Assembly: GCA_016791445.1 (NCBI GenBank)
Contig: JAEUMP010000003.1
Span: 1-64,000, forward strand
Length of the DNA: 64,000 nt
Direction of reading: 5' to 3'
Origin: Hyphomonadaceae bacterium
GTDB taxonomy: Bacteria > Pseudomonadota > Alphaproteobacteria > Caulobacterales > Aquidulcibacteraceae
In this document: positions 32,436 to 40,473 of the stretch, piece after piece
How positions within the stretch are numbered: the stretch's first letter is position 1
Layout: the number at the start of each line of letters is the position of its first letter
Made by a program: the position numbers and the translations under genes
The notes under the pieces: generated by a model
Told to the model about the DNA's origin: nothing
The model's database searches: none
What the model saw: only the letters and a program-made list of their open reading frames with translations

Positions 32436-34586
32436 ATGAAGCGCGTGGGCGCACTGGCGGCGTTGATCGCCGCGACATTGCTGGTCGGCTGCAATCAGCA
32501 GAAGGGCGTCGACGCGACGCGCATCGAACGCGGCGCGGCGGAAGAGTGGCTCAACTACGGGCGCACCTATGACGAGCAGCGCTTCAGCCCGCTCGACAAG
32601 ATCAATCGCGGCAACGTCGCGCAACTTGGTCTCGCCTGGTACGCCGAGTTCGACACCGATCGCGGCCAGGAAGCGACGCCGCTGATGGTGGACGGCGTGC
32701 TCTACACGACGACCGCGTGGAGCAAGGTCTATGCATTCGACGCGCGCACCGGCGCGCAGAAATGGTCCTACGACCCGAAGGTGCCCGGCGAGCGCGGCTT
32801 CAGCGCGTGCTGCGACGTGGTCAATCGCGGCGTCGCGGTCTGGGGCGGCAAGGTCTATGTCGGCACGCTCGACGGCCGGCTGGTCGCGCTCGATGCGGCG
32901 ACGGGCGAGGAGAAGTGGTCTGTCGTCACGGTCGACCAGTCCAAGCCCTACACGATCACCATGGCGCCGCGCGTGGTTCAGGGACGCGTGCTGATCGGCA
33001 ACAGCGGCGCCGAGTACGGCGTGCGCGGCTATCTCACCGCCTATGACGCCGAAACCGGCGACAAGGTCTGGCGCTTCTACACGACGCCGAACCCGCAAGG
33101 CCTGCCCGACAACGAAGTCTCCGACGCCATCTTCGCCGAAAAGGCCAATGCGACGTGGAGCGACGGCGCCTGGAAGCATTCCGGCGGCGGCGGCACGGTG
33201 TGGGATGCGCTCGCGTACGACCCGGCGCTGAACACGGTCTATGTCGGCGTCGGCAACGGCGCGCCGTGGAACCACCGCGTGCGCTCCGGCGGGCAGGGCG
33301 ACAACCTCTTCCTGTCCTCGATCCTCGCGCTCGACGCGACGACGGGCGCCTACAAGTGGCACTACCAGACGACGCCCGGAGAGACGTGGGACTACACCGC
33401 CACGCAGCACATCATGCTCGCGGACATGAATATCGGCGGCTCGGTGCGGAAGGTGCTGCTGCAGGCGCCGAAAAACGGCTTCTTCTACGTCCTCGATCGC
33501 ACCACGGGCGAACTCCTCAGCGCCGACGCCTACATTCCCATGGCGCCGGAATCGGCGACGCCGGCCGGCATGCCGGTGTCGTGGTCCACGGGCGAGGTGA
33601 AGGACGGGCGTCCGGTCGAAAATCCGAGTGCGCGCTACGCCAAGAGCGCCGCGCTCGTCAGTCCCGCGCCGTTCGGCGCGCACAACTGGCAGCCGATGGC
33701 GTTCAATCCGAACGAAGGCCTCGTCTTCATTCCGGTGACGACCGCGGGCGCGCTCGCGCAGGTCTATGCCGACGATCCGGCGTTCAAGTATCGCGACGGC
33801 GGCTGGAACACCGGCATCAATTTCAACCTCGGCGACCTGCCGAGCGATGAAGCCCAGCGCGTCGCGCTGAAGGCGATGCTGCGCGGACGGCTCGTGGCGT
33901 GGGATCCGGCGGCGCGCAAGCCGCGCTGGTCGGTGGAGCTGCCGTCCTTCTGGAATGCGGGCGTGCTCGCGACCGCCGGCGGTCTCGTGTTCCAGGGCGC
34001 GGCCGAAGGCGCGCTGCACGCCTACGACGCCACCGACGGCAAGAAGCTCTGGTCCTATGAGACAACGAACGGGATCATCGCCGCGCCGATGACCTACGCG
34101 CTCGACGGCGAACAGTATGTGGCGGTGATGGTCGGCTATGGCGGCGCAGGCGCGCTGTCGGCGGCGCCGTTGTTGCCGGATCGTCCGCGCCTGCCAGGCC
34201 GCATCATGGTGTTCAAGCTCGGCGCCACGGCGCAGGCCACGCCCTATGACATTCCGCCGAAGCCCGTGATCGATCTCGCCGGCGTGTCGAGCCGCGGCAA
34301 TGTCGCGGCGGGGCGCAGCGCGTTCAACGCGAACTGCCTCGTCTGCCACAGCCCCAACGCCAGCGGCGGCTACCTGCCGGACCTGCGGCGTTCGGCGAAC
34401 CTGCGCGATGCGACGGCGTTCCGCTCGATCGTGATCGACGGCGCGCTCGCGGCGAACGGCATGGTCGGTTTCGACCGCTATCTGAATGCCGCCCAGGCTG
34501 AGGACATTCGCGCCTTCCTCATCACGGAGGCCCGCCGTCAGCAGGGCCTGGATGCGGCTGCGGCCCGCGCGGCGCCGAAAAAGTGA
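32436..34586 (+). CDS. PQQ-dependent alcohol dehydrogenase with C-terminal cytochrome c domain (quinohemoprotein)
   Basis: 716 residues. A lipoprotein-like signal (ALIAATLLVGC) is followed by the eight-bladed PQQ propeller: WLNYGRTYDEQRFSPLDKI, the vicinal Cys pair in FSACCDVVNRG, and the WDYTATQHIML stretch with the catalytic Asp. A C-terminal heme c domain has CLVCH. This is type II quinohemoprotein ADH architecture; substrates are primary or secondary alcohols by family. The lipobox Cys suggests membrane attachment on the periplasmic side, which is unusual for soluble type II enzymes. No cytochrome or PQQ-synthesis genes are adjacent. Confidence 0.9.
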   Translation: MKRVGALAALIAATLLVGCNQQKGVDATRIERGAAEEWLNYGRTYDEQRFSPLDKINRGNVAQLGLAWYAEFDTDRGQEATPLMVDGVLYTTTAWSKVYAFDARTGAQKWSYDPKVPGERGFSACCDVVNRGVAVWGGKVYVGTLDGRLVALDAATGEEKWSVVTVDQSKPYTITMAPRVVQGRVLIGNSGAEYGVRGYLTAYDAETGDKVWRFYTTPNPQGLPDNEVSDAIFAEKANATWSDGAWKHSGGGGTVWDALAYDPALNTVYVGVGNGAPWNHRVRSGGQGDNLFLSSILALDATTGAYKWHYQTTPGETWDYTATQHIMLADMNIGGSVRKVLLQAPKNGFFYVLDRTTGELLSADAYIPMAPESATPAGMPVSWSTGEVKDGRPVENPSARYAKSAALVSPAPFGAHNWQPMAFNPNEGLVFIPVTTAGALAQVYADDPAFKYRDGGWNTGINFNLGDLPSDEAQRVALKAMLRGRLVAWDPAARKPRWSVELPSFWNAGVLATAGGLVFQGAAEGALHAYDATDGKKLWSYETTNGIIAAPMTYALDGEQYVAVMVGYGGAGALSAAPLLPDRPRLPGRIMVFKLGATAQATPYDIPPKPVIDLAGVSSRGNVAAGRSAFNANCLVCHSPNASGGYLPDLRRSANLRDATAFRSIVIDGALAANGMVGFDRYLNAAQAEDIRAFLITEARRQQGLDAAAARAAPKK

Positions 34587-34801
34587 TCGTCGTCCCGGTT
34601 CCTGCGCCTCGGCGGGAACCGGGAACTTTCGCGTCTCCAACACGTTAGTCGCACCCCGCAACAATCCGACATGCGGGCGAAACGCTCGCGCGTGACGATC
34701 ATCGCGTCGCATTCCCTTCGTGCGGGCGATAGCTCTCGCGCGGGACGTCGACGGAGCGCCGGTTGAGCGGCGTTCATCGCGCGTGTGCGAGATTGAGGCC
34801 C

Positions 34802-36343
34802 ATGACTGACTCCGAAGACGCCATCACCAAGCCGCGCCGCCCGATTCCGTGGCTCTGGGTCGCCATCGGCGGAGCCGTGCTCGTGGGTCTGTTTCTCCTG
34901 TTCGGACGCGGCAAGTCCGACGCAAACCCTTATCGCACCACAGCGGTCGATCGCGGCGAGATCGTGCGCGCGGTGAGCGCCACCGGACAGTTGCAGCCGC
35001 TGATTTCCGTCGATGTGGGTTCCACCGTGTCGGGGCCGATCAAGTCCGTCGAAGTGGATTTCAACGACATCGTAAAAAAGGGGCAGGTGCTCGCGCGTAT
35101 CGATCCCGAGACTTTCCTCCAGCGCGTGCGGCAGGCGGAAGCGAGCGTCGCGCAGGCGCGCGCGGAAGCAAACGCCGCGCGCGCGGATTTCGGTCGTTAT
35201 GAACGCCTTGCGAAGGAGGGTTTCGCGTCCGACCAGATGCTGCTGCAGAACCGCACCGCCGCAGAGCGCGCGAACGCCTCCGTCAGCAACGCCAGCGCGC
35301 AGCTCGCCAGCGCGCGCATCGACCTCGACCGCACGGTGATCCGTTCGCCGGTGGACGGCGTCGTCGTCGATCGCCAGGTCGATCCGGGTCAGACGGTCGC
35401 GGCGAGTTTCCAGGCCGCTACGCTTTTCGTCATCGCACAGGATCTCGCGCAGCTCGAAGCGGCGATCATCGTCGACGAGGCCGACATCGGCGAAGTGCAG
35501 GAAGGCATGGCCGTTCGCTTCACCGTCGACGCGTTCCCCGACGAGACGTTCGAGGGGCGCGTCACGCAGGTGCGCAAGCAGGGCGTGCAGACGTCGGGCG
35601 TCGTCTCCTACACGGTCATCGTGCGCGCGGAAAATCGCGGCGGACGTCTGCTGCCCGGCATGACGGCCAATGCGGAAATCGTGGTTGAGGAAAAGCGTGA
35701 CGTATTGCGAGTCGCCAACAGCGCGCTGCGTTTCGCGCCGGCCGATCCCGCGCTCGCCGCGAAGGGACGCGCGCTGACATCGCCGAGCGGCGCCGCCAAC
35801 GCAGCGACTCCGGCGCGGCGCGGTGAGCACGGCGGCGGCCGGCGCGGCGGCGACGGGGCCGGAAACCAAGGCGGCGGCGCCATGCAACTGGACCGCCTCG
35901 CCGAGGAATTGTCACTGACGCCGGCGCAAAGAGAGCAGGCGCGCGTCGCGATGCAGAACGCGCGCGCCAGCGCCGGATCGCCGCCGCGCGGTGAAGCCAC
36001 GCCGCAGGAACGGCGTGCCTATATGCGCAAGACGCGCGAGGCGTCGATGCGGGCGCTCGAACCGATCCTCACCGCCGAACAGAAGGCGAAACTCGCCAGC
36101 CTGCGCGAGACCGGCGCGGGCCGTGAGACGCGCGTGCGCAACGCCGTCGTCTGGGTGCTCCGCGACAACAAGCCCGCGCCGGTGCAGGTGCAACTCGGCG
36201 TCGCCGCCGATGCCTACACAGAAGTCGTCGCCGGACTTCAGCCGGGCGATCTCATCATCACCGGCGGCGGCCCCGCGTCGAAGGAAAAGCGCCAGCAGGG
36301 CGGACCGATGGGGCCGGGCGGCGGCGTCCGCATCCGGGGCTGA
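34802..36343 (+). CDS. macA: MacA-like periplasmic adaptor with an inserted Spy-like LTxxQ segment
   Basis: 513 residues from the ATG at 34802. An N-terminal membrane anchor (WLWVAIGGAVLVGLFLLF) precedes membrane-fusion domains: VSATGQLQPLISVDVGSTVS, an alpha-hairpin (residues ~100-170), and VIRSPVDGVVVDRQVDPGQT. An additional ~110 residues interrupt the last domain: a Gly/Arg-rich linker, then helices with LTPAQ (372-376) and LTAEQ (423-427), the signature of Spy/CpxP proteins. The adaptor domain then resumes (AVVWVLRDNKPAPVQVQLGV). Typical MacA is ~370-400 residues. Three bases separate it from the ATPase gene, starting a MacAB-TolC-type operon. Confidence 0.9.
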   Translation: MTDSEDAITKPRRPIPWLWVAIGGAVLVGLFLLFGRGKSDANPYRTTAVDRGEIVRAVSATGQLQPLISVDVGSTVSGPIKSVEVDFNDIVKKGQVLARIDPETFLQRVRQAEASVAQARAEANAARADFGRYERLAKEGFASDQMLLQNRTAAERANASVSNASAQLASARIDLDRTVIRSPVDGVVVDRQVDPGQTVAASFQAATLFVIAQDLAQLEAAIIVDEADIGEVQEGMAVRFTVDAFPDETFEGRVTQVRKQGVQTSGVVSYTVIVRAENRGGRLLPGMTANAEIVVEEKRDVLRVANSALRFAPADPALAAKGRALTSPSGAANAATPARRGEHGGGRRGGDGAGNQGGGAMQLDRLAEELSLTPAQREQARVAMQNARASAGSPPRGEATPQERRAYMRKTREASMRALEPILTAEQKAKLASLRETGAGRETRVRNAVVWVLRDNKPAPVQVQLGVAADAYTEVVAGLQPGDLIITGGGPASKEKRQQGGPMGPGGGVRIRG

Positions 36344-36345
36344 CC

Positions 36346-37029
36346 ATGGCGCTCATCGAAGCCAGAAGTCTCGAAAAGACCTACCGCATGGGCGATGAAG
36401 TCGTGCACGCGCTCGACAAGGTCTCCTTCGCGGTGCCGCGCGGCGACTATTGCGCCGTGATCGGTCCGTCGGGTTCGGGCAAATCGACATTGATGAATGT
36501 CATCGGCGGTCTCGATACGCCGAGCGCGGGGACGCTGATCATCAATGGCGCAGATCTCGGTACGCTCGACGACGAGGGCCTGGCGGGGTTCCGCAATCGC
36601 ACGATCGGCTTCGTGTTCCAGTCCTTCAACCTGCTGCCGCGCCTCACCGCACTGCAGAATGTCGAACTGCCCATGCTCTATGCGGGTACGCCGCCCTCGG
36701 AGCGGCAGGATCGCGCAGCGGCGCTGCTCGATCGCGTCGGACTCGGCCAGCGCAAGACGCATCGTCCCACGCAACTTTCCGGCGGCCAGCAGCAGCGCGT
36801 CGCGATCGCGCGCGCGCTCGCGTGCCAGCCGGCGGTGATCCTCGCCGACGAGCCGACCGGCGCGCTCGACACCAGCACGACCAATGAAATTCTCGCCCTG
36901 TTCAGGGAGCTGAACCGCGAAGGCGCGACGATCATCATCGTCACCCACGAGCACGAAGTCGCGCAGGCGACGAAGCGCATCATCGAAATGCGCGACGGGC
37001 GCATCGTTTCTGACAGGCCCGTCTCATGA
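36346..37029 (+). CDS. MacB/LolD-type ABC transporter ATPase
   Basis: 227 residues. Walker A GPSGSGKSTLMN, Q loop FVFQSFNLLPRLTA, signature LSGGQQQRVAIARAL, Walker B PAVILADEPTGALD and the switch His in IIIVTHEHEVA are all present. It belongs to the mechanotransmission (MacB/LolD) ABC family. Unlike E. coli MacB, ATPase and permease are separate proteins here. Its stop overlaps the permease ATG by four bases. Confidence 0.95.
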   Translation: MALIEARSLEKTYRMGDEVVHALDKVSFAVPRGDYCAVIGPSGSGKSTLMNVIGGLDTPSAGTLIINGADLGTLDDEGLAGFRNRTIGFVFQSFNLLPRLTALQNVELPMLYAGTPPSERQDRAAALLDRVGLGQRKTHRPTQLSGGQQQRVAIARALACQPAVILADEPTGALDTSTTNEILALFRELNREGATIIIVTHEHEVAQATKRIIEMRDGRIVSDRPVS

Positions 37030-38258
37030 TGACGCCCCGCGATCTCGTCGCCACATCGGCGCGTGCGCTGCGTGTGAACCCGCTGCGGAGCGCGCTGACG
37101 GCGCTCGGCGTCATCATCGGCGTTGCGTCGGTGGTGGCGATGGTGGCGCTCGGCGAAGGCGCGCAGCAGCGCGTGCAGTCGAGCATATCGAGCCTCGGAT
37201 CGAACCTTCTGATCATCGTTCCCGGCGCGCAGCGTCAGGGCGGGGTGGCGATGGCGCCGGGATCGTTCAACTCCCTCACCGTCTCCGACGCGGAGGCGAT
37301 CGAGCGCGACGTGCCGGGTGCTGTCGCCGTCGCGCCGTCGCAGCGCGGCAATGCGCAGATCGTCGCCGACGGCGCCAACTGGAACACGCGCATCGAAGGC
37401 GTTACCCCGCCCTACCTCGAAGCCCGCGACTGGGCCGTGGCCAGCGGGCGCTTCTTCGAGGACAGCGAGACACGGCAGGCGCGCAAGGTCGCCGTGCTCG
37501 GCGCCACTGTCGCGCGCGAACTCTTCCCCAACAGCGATCCGGTCAACCAGCGCATCCGCATTTCCGGCGGCCAGTACGAAGTCATCGGCGTGCTGGAGCC
37601 GAAGGGGCAATCGGGCTTCGGACAGGATCAGGACGACATCGTGCTCGCACCGCTGCAGACGGTGAAGCGCCGCGTTTCCGGGCGGCAGGGGCGCGCTGAC
37701 ACCGTCAGCCAGATTTCCGTGAAAGCAGAGAGCGAAGCCGCGCTCACGCAATTGCAGGAAGATGTCGAAGCGCTCCTGCGCCAGCGCCATCGCATCGCGC
37801 CCGGCGCGAGCGACGATTTCACCGTGCAGAATCTCTCTTCCATCGCCGACACGATGAAGCAGACGACAGCGGCCTTTACCGCACTGCTCGCGGCAATTTC
37901 GGCGGTATCGCTCGTTGTCGGCGGCATCGGCATCATGAACATCATGCTCGTCTCGGTGACCGAGCGCACGCGCGAAATCGGGCTGCGCAAGGCGCTCGGT
38001 GCGCGGCGGCAGGACATCTTGTGGCAGTTCGGGCTCGAGGCCGTTGTGCTCTCCATCGCCGGCGGCGCGGTCGGCCTTCTGCTGGGTTCGCTTGTGGCCT
38101 GGGGCGTGACGACGCTGATGCAGGTGCCGCTCGTGCTCGGCGTGACGACGGCGGCGACGGCGCTCGGATTTTCCGCACTCGTGGGCGTCGCCTTCGGCGC
38201 CTATCCTGCCTGGCGCGCCGCGCGCCTTGATCCCATCGAAGCGCTGCGGCGCGAATGA
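37026..38258 (+). CDS. MacB-type permease (FtsX family)
   Basis: 410 residues. An N-terminal helix (SALTALGVIIGVASVVAMVA) is followed by the MacB periplasmic core domain and three C-terminal helices (ALLAAISAVSLVVGGIGIMN; VLSIAGGAVGLLLGSLVAWG; TAATALGFSALVGVAFGAYP). MTERTREIGLRKALGARR-like sequence (VTERTREIGLRKALGARRQ) is diagnostic for FtsX/MacB. With the adaptor, ATPase and TolC-like genes it forms a tripartite exporter for peptides, macrolides or lipid-linked substrates; the substrate is not predictable here. Confidence 0.93.
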   Translation: MMTPRDLVATSARALRVNPLRSALTALGVIIGVASVVAMVALGEGAQQRVQSSISSLGSNLLIIVPGAQRQGGVAMAPGSFNSLTVSDAEAIERDVPGAVAVAPSQRGNAQIVADGANWNTRIEGVTPPYLEARDWAVASGRFFEDSETRQARKVAVLGATVARELFPNSDPVNQRIRISGGQYEVIGVLEPKGQSGFGQDQDDIVLAPLQTVKRRVSGRQGRADTVSQISVKAESEAALTQLQEDVEALLRQRHRIAPGASDDFTVQNLSSIADTMKQTTAAFTALLAAISAVSLVVGGIGIMNIMLVSVTERTREIGLRKALGARRQDILWQFGLEAVVLSIAGGAVGLLLGSLVAWGVTTLMQVPLVLGVTTAATALGFSALVGVAFGAYPAWRAARLDPIEALRRE

Positions 38259-38270
38259 CCGAGTAAAGCC

Positions 38271-39527
38271 ATGCGCAAACTTCTCCTTGCTGCGGCCGCG
38301 TGGGCCGCCTTCGCCGGCCCCGTCGCCGCGGACACGCTCACCGAAGCGATGACGGCGGCGCTGGAGTCCAATCCGTCCATCGAGGCGCGGCGCTCCCGGC
38401 TCGAGGCCACGCGCGAGACGCTGCCGCAGGCGCGCGCGGCGGCGTTGCCGTCGCTGTCGGTTTCCGCCGGCGCGAGCGCGTCGCAGCGCGACGGCGGCGG
38501 CGCGCCCGGATCGAGCAACGAGAGCTGGTCAGGTTCGGCGTCGGCGTCGCAGCTCCTCTTCGGCAGCGGGGCGGTGGCGGCGTCGACGCGGCAGGCGCGT
38601 GCGGGGATCGCCGGCGCGGAGGCGGACTACAACGGCGCGGTGCAGACGCTGCTGCTCGACGTGACGACGGCTTATGCCGGGCTGCGCGAGGCGCAGGCGA
38701 TCGTGGCGGCGCGTCAGCGCACGCTCGAGAATCTCGAAACGCAGCGACGCTTCGCGGAAGCGCGCTTCAACGCCGGCGTCGCTACGCGCACCGATCTCGC
38801 ACAGGCGCAGGCGCGGCTTGCGCAGGCGCGCACGCAACTCATCCAGTCGCAAGGCGCGCTCGCCGGCGCCAACGAAACCTATATGCGTCTTGTGGGGCGT
38901 CCTGCGGCGACGCTCGAACCCGTGCCGGCGGCGGCGGGTCTGCCGGCGTCGCTCGACGAAGCGCTGCGCGCCGGCGCGGAACAGAGTCCGACGCTGGTGA
39001 GCGCGCGCGCGGCGGCACTGTCTGCAGATGCGGCGGTGGCGGCGAGCTTCGCAGCGCGCGGGCCGCGGGTATCGCTGGAGGCGGGTTCATCGCTCGGCAA
39101 CGACTTTGGGTCGAGCCTCAGCAATTCGACTTCCGACAGTGTCGGCGTGCGCGTATCGATACCGCTGTTCAGCGGCGGCGCGGCGTCCTCGCGGACGCGT
39201 CAGGCGCGGGCGCTGCGCGATGCGGCGGGGCTCGAGGTCGCTGCGGCCGAGCGCCAGATCCGCGAAACGGTGACGACGGCATGGACGTCCGTGGACACCG
39301 CGCGCGCCGCCTACGCGTCAGCGCGCGAGCAGCTCGAAGCCGCAGAGCTTGCCTATCGCGGCGTGACGCTGGAGCAGGAAGTGGGACTGCGCGCCACGGT
39401 GGAAGTGCTCGATCAGGAAGCAGATCTGCTCGCCGCGCGTCTCGCGCTCGCGGCGGCGGAGCGGGAGCTGGCGATCGCCGAGCGTCGGCTCCTCGCCGCG
39501 ACGGGCGCGCTTACACAGCCGCGCTAA
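38271..39527 (+). CDS. TolC-family outer-membrane channel
   Basis: 418 residues with a signal peptide (LLLAAAAWAAFAGPVAADT). Two long helical repeats typical of TolC/OEP proteins are visible, with Ala/Gln-rich coiled regions (RFAEARFNAGVATRTDLAQA and its second-repeat counterpart LAYRGVTLEQEVGLRATVEV). It starts 12 bases after the permease and completes the export operon. The 3' end overlaps the convergent UbiA-family gene by 17 bases. Confidence 0.93.
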   Translation: MRKLLLAAAAWAAFAGPVAADTLTEAMTAALESNPSIEARRSRLEATRETLPQARAAALPSLSVSAGASASQRDGGGAPGSSNESWSGSASASQLLFGSGAVAASTRQARAGIAGAEADYNGAVQTLLLDVTTAYAGLREAQAIVAARQRTLENLETQRRFAEARFNAGVATRTDLAQAQARLAQARTQLIQSQGALAGANETYMRLVGRPAATLEPVPAAAGLPASLDEALRAGAEQSPTLVSARAAALSADAAVAASFAARGPRVSLEAGSSLGNDFGSSLSNSTSDSVGVRVSIPLFSGGAASSRTRQARALRDAAGLEVAAAERQIRETVTTAWTSVDTARAAYASAREQLEAAELAYRGVTLEQEVGLRATVEVLDQEADLLAARLALAAAERELAIAERRLLAATGALTQPR

Positions 39528-40473
39528 AGAACTCGCGCACGAGATAGGGCAGCACGCCGACGCTGAAATACGTCAGCGCCGTCGCGCCCGCGACCCAGCC
39601 GAGCAGCGCGTTGGCGCGCGCGGGCGTCGGTTTGTCTGCGTAGCCTGCGGCGCCGAGAAAGGCGCCGAACCCCGCAAGCGTCGCCGGCAGATACCACCAC
39701 CCCGCAACGCCGGTGGCGACAAAGGAAAGCGCGCCGAAGACGACGATGGCGGCGACGGCGCTTGCCGTCGCCATGCCCGCACGCACAGTTCCCCAGAGGC
39801 CCGAATACGTGACGACGCCCTCACGCTCGTCGCCCTTCGCACGGCACTTGCGCGCAAACTCCATCGCCATTGCAGCGGCGGCGGAGAGTCCGAGAAACAC
39901 CGGCAGCGCTGGGCTCAGCAAGCCGGTCTCGGGGAGTTGCCCCGCCGCCGCCGCATAGAGCGCCACGAGCGGGAAGAAGACGAGATGCAGCGCCAGCGAG
40001 AGCAGCGGGCGGCGTTTCAGAAGTGCGCGGTCGAAGAAGTCGTTGCGAACAAGAAAGATCCAGAGCCACGGCAGCACGAGCAGCGCGAGAAGCGGGGGAT
40101 GCAGCGCCGCCGTCAACACCACCTGGATCGCCAGCGCCCCGGTGAAGAAGATGTCGAGCTCCGGCAGCGTGATCACGCCGCTCGGCACCGGCAGTTCAGG
40201 GCGCGCGGCGAGGTCCTCGTCATAGTCGCGGTGTTCGTCGGCGACGCGCAGCTGGAAGAAGAGCAGGAAAACGACCACGAGCACGACGAAGAGCGTCGGC
40301 GTCGGCGGCGCGCCGGGCGCGGCCCGCGTCAGTGCGCCGAAGCACACGCACGCCAGCGCGAAAAGCACGATCAGCGCCCCTTGCGAGGCCACCGGGAAGC
40401 GCGCCGCCTGATAGGTCCACAATCGCGCGGAAAGCGATCTGGGATCGAGCGCGACTGGTTTCTGCTCCGCCAA
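39511..40473 (-). CDS. UbiA-family membrane prenyltransferase-like protein
   Basis: 320 residues with eight or nine hydrophobic segments. A polar motif FFQLRVADEHRDYDED after the second segment matches the Asp-rich prenyl-diphosphate motif of UbiA proteins (NDxxDxxxD) in modified form, and VRNDFFDRALLKRRPLLSL may serve as the second. It is divergent from ubiX across 135 bases. Pairing with UbiX suggests a link to quinone or prenyl chemistry, but it is not a standard UbiA (4-hydroxybenzoate transferase) and the acceptor is unknown. Confidence 0.7.
   Translation of the reverse strand: MAEQKPVALDPRSLSARLWTYQAARFPVASQGALIVLFALACVCFGALTRAAPGAPPTPTLFVVLVVVFLLFFQLRVADEHRDYDEDLAARPELPVPSGVITLPELDIFFTGALAIQVVLTAALHPPLLALLVLPWLWIFLVRNDFFDRALLKRRPLLSLALHLVFFPLVALYAAAAGQLPETGLLSPALPVFLGLSAAAAMAMEFARKCRAKGDEREGVVTYSGLWGTVRAGMATASAVAAIVVFGALSFVATGVAGWWYLPATLAGFGAFLGAAGYADKPTPARANALLGWVAGATALTYFSVGVLPYLVREFFSAAV

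Follow-up and report, generated by a model that had tools for sequence, protein, structure and literature searches.

Substrate choice and loading by MacB-type pumps are, to our knowledge, poorly understood. According to one report, the membrane-proximal domains of MacA touch the periplasmic domain of MacB around a cavity that is open to the periplasm (PMC5985334). In a recent review MacA is still regarded chiefly as a passive scaffold (PMC13328181). An adaptor of another kind, SilB of an RND metal pump, is described as carrying a CusF-like metallochaperone domain at its C-terminus (PMC4446572). Spy is characterized as a dimer with a basic cradle which binds unfolded clients independently of ATP (PMC8144458), and five of its methionines (46, 64, 85, 93 and 97) are reported to be crucial for activity (PMC12503329). 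Spy and CpxP are stand-alone periplasmic proteins.

Here we describe a MacA-type adaptor in a window of 64,000 nucleotides (positions 1 to 64,000 of contig JAEUMP010000003.1, assembly GCA_016791445.1) from a Hyphomonadaceae bacterium. A module of the Spy/CpxP (LTXXQ) superfamily is embedded in this adaptor and is thereby membrane-tethered, unlike Spy and CpxP themselves. As in SilB, the adaptor bears a domain whose relatives elsewhere are separate periplasmic chaperones; in contrast to SilB, the module lies inside the membrane-proximal domain and the adaptor serves an ABC pump. No publication on a fusion of LTXXQ, Spy or CpxP with a MacA-type adaptor was found in open-licence full texts.

The adaptor and its operon

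A comparison of the window adaptor with E. coli MacA shows the same domain order, an N-terminal membrane helix and an operon shared with MacB subunits (Table 1). The reading frame starts with ATG at 34802 and its translation has exactly the 513 residues, with LTPAQ at 372 and LTAEQ at 423, that had been read from the sequence beforehand. The membrane helix (residues 17-34) and the hairpin (103-176) are accompanied by lipoyl, beta-barrel and membrane-proximal domains. The Pfam families PF16576 (HlyD_D23) and PF13437 (HlyD_3) are matched above cut-off, and so is TIGR01730 with 184.6 bits. E. coli MacA is the best sequence match in the PDB (phmmer); with the full adaptor model, MacA takes Foldseek ranks 1-2 and all 50 among the matches listed are adaptors. 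The NCBIfam equivalog for MacA, NF008606, is not reached (146.1 bits, where 342 are required). Thus "MacA-type" is the right term for this adaptor, and "MacA" in the strict sense would be wrong.

Four genes follow each other on one strand in the order macA-macB(ATPase)-macB(permease)-tolC, with the adaptor directly 5' of the MacB-type ATPase. MacB is split over two genes here, unlike in E. coli MacAB-TolC. A scan of 34500-39700 for promoters and terminators gave nothing clearly exceeding shuffled sequence. Upstream of the operon lies a PQQ-type dehydrogenase whose C-terminal part is a cytochrome domain (32436-34586), found at the same place in the two nearest relatives (L001 and L002). No substrate gene was recognized near the operon: the neighbour clusters in the relatives' loci consist of kinases, regulators and EF-hand proteins, and a peptide substrate is named by no neighbouring gene.

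Table 1. Features of the adaptor and its operon (window coordinates; residue numbers refer to the adaptor)
Feature	Coordinates	Strand	Basis
MacA-type periplasmic adaptor, 513 aa	34802..36343	+	Pfam HlyD_D23 + HlyD_3, TIGR01730, AlphaFold2 model
Entire insert in membrane-proximal domain, residues 312-448	35735..36145	+	Relatives aligned; E. coli MacA lacks these residues
Gly/Arg-rich linker, residues 327-357, mostly disordered	35780..35872	+	pLDDT; no secondary structure 327-357
LTXXQ (Spy/CpxP/CnrX-superfamily) helical module, residues 358-438	35873..36115	+	Pfam, profile, model, VIA-align
First motif LTPAQ, residues 372-376	35915..35929	+	Sequence; conserved L, Q
Second motif LTAEQ, residues 423-427	36068..36082	+	Sequence; conserved L, Q
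Return strands of membrane-proximal domain, residues 449-489	36146..36268	+	Alignment to E. coli MacA 325-364; model strands
Split MacB transporter, ATP-binding subunit	36346..37029	+	Pfam ABC_tran; top NCBIfam = MacB, under equivalog cut-off
Split MacB transporter, permease subunit	37026..38258	+	Pfam MacB_PCD + FtsX above cut-off
TolC-family outer-membrane channel	38271..39527	+	Pfam OEP; TIGR01844 above cut-off

The insert in the membrane-proximal domain

Residues 14-311 and 450-489 of the adaptor align with residues 6-316 and 325-364 of E. coli MacA (phmmer, PDB). Between these blocks, where E. coli MacA has a loop of about 8 residues (317-324), the window adaptor carries about 137-138 residues including the LTXXQ module. 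An AlphaFold2 model of the adaptor, built with 72 adaptors (mean pLDDT 87.6, pTM 0.70), places the insert in the membrane-proximal domain, flanked by a strand on either side. Alignment and model thus agree with the earlier note, which had proposed that a Gly/Arg-rich linker and helices interrupt this domain. The module is formed by helices 358-369, 374-390, 401-422 and 425-438. Block-mean pLDDT is 89-97 over residues 361-430 and 79 over 431-440, while linker residues 337-355 stay below 50. A disordered segment or an ordinary hairpin extension, either of which had been named as counting against the proposal, is not what the model contains: the helices are confident and only the linker is disordered.

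LTPAQ opens helix 2 and LTAEQ opens helix 4, and no further LTxxQ motif occurs in the adaptor. Their conservation, which goes beyond chance, was followed in an alignment of 70 inserts, which comprises the window adaptor and 69 of 80 fetched loci, the latter being the best 80 of 144 relatives. Two loci without a recovered adaptor reading frame (L047, L057), four that run off their contigs (L019, L050, L065, L075) and five with other or short inserts (L018, L040, L077, L079, L080) are absent from it; a second alignment, A2, omits L051, L052 and L079, which have long false N-terminal extensions. Leu372 is conserved in 67/70 inserts, Gln376 in 69/70, Leu423 in 66/70 and Gln427 in 62/70, and the pair L...Q is retained by 67/70 at the first site and 58/70 at the second. 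The strict letters LT..Q are rare (15/70 and 14/70, respectively), thus the threonine is not the conserved part of the motif. One insert with degenerate motifs (VDDAR and LTSDE, in L066) is still counted as a module in the tree described below.

Two Opitutae relatives carry another Gly-rich insert at the same loop (L079, 6958-7332; L080, 6838-7074), without an LTXXQ match. The membrane-proximal loop therefore seems to accept unrelated insertions.

Assignment to the Spy/CpxP superfamily

With PF07813 (Pfam LTXXQ; cut-off 24.3 bits), the isolated insert reaches 28.4 bits and passes, whereas the full-length adaptor stays below with 16.1 bits. PF07813 is matched by 64/70 inserts and PF13801 (Metal_resist) by 26/70 at E <= 1. 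When six chosen other module inserts were scanned singly, two passed the LTXXQ cut-off and four fell below; four inserts without the module, treated likewise, gave no LTXXQ match.

A profile of the 70 inserts was searched against 177,635 PDB sequences. Spy (3oeo) comes top with 5.4e-8 and is followed by three further Spy sequences and two CpxP sequences (3qzc with 0.0096, the other with 0.019). A VirG-like protein comes next (0.064), and from 0.074 on the entries are unrelated. Among 398 genomes of the phylum the same profile matched 72, and the matches are of two main kinds, adaptors of ~500 residues and stand-alone proteins of ~150-300 residues. The latter include frames which, from reading their sequences, we take to be similar to enterobacterial Spy (e.g. 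L109 and L110). All 16 of the chosen stand-alone LTXXQ-type proteins score 30.4-35.6 bits with the insert profile; since they had been found with that profile, it is the PDB search that counts as independent evidence. The NCBIfam equivalog for Spy itself is missed (16.0 bits against a cut-off of 174), so the module is of the same superfamily and is not Spy.

Some further frames stand out among the profile matches. Three long non-adaptor frames (L124, L126 and L130) match weakly, with two or three matches each in L124 and L126, which have 476 and 457 residues and come from genomes of ~7 million bases. A stand-alone protein of 331 residues (L129, G489:C1) contains three profile-matched stretches in a row and is perhaps a tandem LTXXQ protein.

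The fold points in the same direction. The insert modelled alone has a mean pLDDT of 75.2 and gave no significant Foldseek match (best E 1.4). When Foldseek's 380 best chains were compared by VIA-align, ranks 1-13 were all STV, Spy or CnrX, with Z of 9.4 and 8.9 for STV, 7.7-6.5 for Spy and 6.4-6.2 for CnrX, and the next, unrelated row had 5.0. Helical bundles often give Z below ~13, and the ranking is therefore support for the fold and no proof of it. Taking sequence profile and fold comparison together, we regard the membership of the module in the Spy/CpxP (LTXXQ) superfamily as settled. The Spy-family assignment first made from the two motifs, for which the lack of any profile match would have been damaging, is therefore sustained by the Pfam score, by Spy as best PDB profile match and by the structural ranking.

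Distribution and loss of the module

Related adaptors (E <= 1e-40) occur in 58 of 150 genomes of the window's order, taken as Caulobacterales from its named relatives, with 62 matches in total. By the insert profile, 44 of these 62 have a clear module (E <= 1e-3), 7 a weak one (E <= 0.1) and 11 none, and the module is also present in adaptors of Lysobacteraceae. This order-wide count is preferred to the 70/75 with a module among the fetched adaptors, which is biased because one of the six short peptides that found the first 80 loci lies inside the insert (another lies near the C-terminus). The insert had first appeared as a single odd fusion, and this view has to be given up: with the LTXXQ module, the MacA-type adaptor has a variant that runs through a whole adaptor clade, in which the module is a standing feature.

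A quick likelihood tree was calculated from 75 adaptor cores with the insert columns omitted, and each adaptor was labelled as with or without module by reading its sequence. The label needs two changes on this tree. Four distantly related adaptors that lack the module (two Opitutae, Kryptonia and Zixiibacteriota) branch outside, while the module-less L018 is nested in a well-supported alphaproteobacterial clade. From this position, loss in L018 is the simplest reading; L018 keeps the whole operon, so the module is dispensable there. The module is old and was inherited in the adaptor clade of Caulobacterales and Lysobacteraceae.

Within the window's own genome, the insert is absent from L085 (447 aa), the best of four weaker adaptor matches. 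A separate LTXXQ protein of 146 residues is encoded in the same genome (L081, 1465-1905, minus strand; G000:C6 near 295141-295419) and scores 31.9 bits, above the cut-off. Its gene adjoins what we presume, from reading the sequences, to be an extracytoplasmic sigma factor-like gene, near a MerR-like regulator. Judged by its sequences, this gene set looks like a CnrX-type arrangement.

Comparison with Spy

Besides the profile and fold match, the window module shares with Spy and CpxP the two L...Q motifs that open helices 2 and 4. The motifs are closer together, with a spacing of 51 residues against 73 in Spy-type proteins; the range over the 70 inserts is 40 to 91. In the joint alignment, Met384 and Met408 of the window adaptor fall on Spy Met46 and Met93, whereas Spy Met64 and Met85 lie in a gap of the window module and Spy Met97 meets an arginine. 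The window module thus has Met at two of the five crucial Spy positions and does not possess the full set. Position 408 is Met in 54/70 inserts; at position 384, Leu, Phe or Ile account for 58/70 and Met for 5/70. From this alignment the module, at any rate in the short form seen in the window, appears to retain both motif-bearing ends of the Spy fold without its middle part. With the short spacing and the Met64/Met85 stretch in a gap, a full Spy cradle is not evident and cannot be assumed. The net charge of the window module is +4; over the 70 modules it is negative in 10 and zero in 7.

Possible functions of the module

As the most likely role, to which we give about an even chance, the module would tether a Spy-like client-binding surface beside the MacB intake and work there like a tethered Spy. 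This reading draws on Met384 and Met408 at the places of Spy Met46 and Met93, on the net charge of +4 set beside the basic Spy cradle, and on the precedent of the CusF-like domain of SilB. Because MacA and MacB are in contact at the periplasm-open cavity, a tethered module would sit at the substrate entry. The Spy/CpxP-type module is spliced into the membrane-proximal loop by a flexible Gly/Arg-rich linker, and about six copies might hang around the ring of adaptors, close to MacB's periplasmic domain. Each would bind unfolded or amphipathic clients weakly and without ATP, for which peptides, lipopeptides and damaged segments of periplasmic proteins are candidates. Such binding would enrich clients locally where the pump takes them in from the periplasm, and would keep them from aggregating until they are handed over to MacB and expelled. 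Several points speak against this role: the short motif spacing and the gap at Met64 and Met85, a net charge that is zero or negative in 17/70 modules, the PF07813 scores below cut-off and the lack of a significant Foldseek match, the loss in L018, and the lack of a neighbouring gene that names a peptide substrate.

CpxP restrains CpxA, and the membrane-proximal domain is known to switch the ATPase activity of MacB. As the main rival reading, the module could be a CpxP-like sensor which reports envelope stress or pump occupancy to a histidine kinase or, through the membrane-proximal domain, to MacB, a role that we hold to be possible though rather unlikely. In 41 of the 78 loci whose adaptor was recovered, a histidine kinase and response regulator of one type stand directly upstream, in 40 of them on the same strand. 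Another kinase/regulator pair, divergent from the adaptor, is found in 13/78 with EF-hand proteins in between. The operon is hence flanked by one of two unrelated two-component systems in 54/78 relatives, and as the two kinase types are only ~27-30% identical, the association looks repeated (the thresholds for kinase type were chosen by us, and the kinase and regulator domains were confirmed for examples). Control of macAB by PhoPQ in enterics (PMC5985334) also fits a sensor. However, 23/78 loci, including L001 and L002, have neither pair (in 1/78 the upstream DNA is too short), and the window's lineage keeps the module without the kinase: there is no kinase pair beside the window operon, its upstream gene is the PQQ-type dehydrogenase, and the window's genome has no close counterpart of the divergent regulator, the best being 49% identical. 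Moreover, kinase adjacency may merely reflect regulation of the operon.

The two EF-hand proteins of the divergent-pair loci look secreted and lie between the operon and the pair in Hyphomonadaceae-type relatives (L010, 4156-4806 and 5001-5756). The first is present in 13/13 of these loci and the second in 12/13.

It is improbable that the module is a structural part which stabilizes the adaptor hexamer or the MacB dock, for instance by Spy-like pairing, with no client binding. Six copies in the ring could pair as three dimers in the manner of dimeric Spy (PMC8144458), and the module is located in the domain that docks on MacB (PMC5985334). Against this, the AlphaFold2 model gives it a long and disordered linker, its loss in L018 leaves the operon and the partners intact, and E. 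coli MacA forms a pump without any such module.

ZraP is a metal-binding relative grouped with CnrX. A metal sensor or metal buffer of the CnrX or ZraP kind would agree with CnrX among the structural matches and with PF13801 in 26/70 inserts. We consider it very unlikely since His and Cys are not conserved: the window module, in spite of a fold similar to CnrX by VIA-align, has neither residue, nor have 60 others among the 70 modules (61/70 in all), while eight have one His and one has two.

Finally, that this is a low-complexity insertion with helices resembling LTXXQ proteins by composition alone is hardly credible: the helices are rich in Ala, Gln and Arg, the full-length PF07813 score is below cut-off and Foldseek alone found nothing significant, but none of 30 column permutations of the insert alignment exceeds 12.7 bits, where the real alignment scores 30-36, the reversed alignment matches none, the motif positions are conserved, and VIA-align ranks 1-13 are all family members.

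Implications

The tethered Spy-like surface can be extended to a built-in client-holding ring, in which up to six modules would catch misfolded or membrane-active peptides in the periplasm and feed MacB, and their occupancy would gate MacB by way of the membrane-proximal domain and signal to a neighbouring kinase. We regard this extension as speculative and doubtful; if true, chaperoning, export and stress sensing would be joined in one machine. A removable chaperone-related module together with a natural module-less relative offers a clean way to ask if substrates are presented by adaptors. The exporter may have a client-binding or stress-sensing part of its own, and this provides a testable case in many Caulobacterales and Lysobacter-type bacteria.
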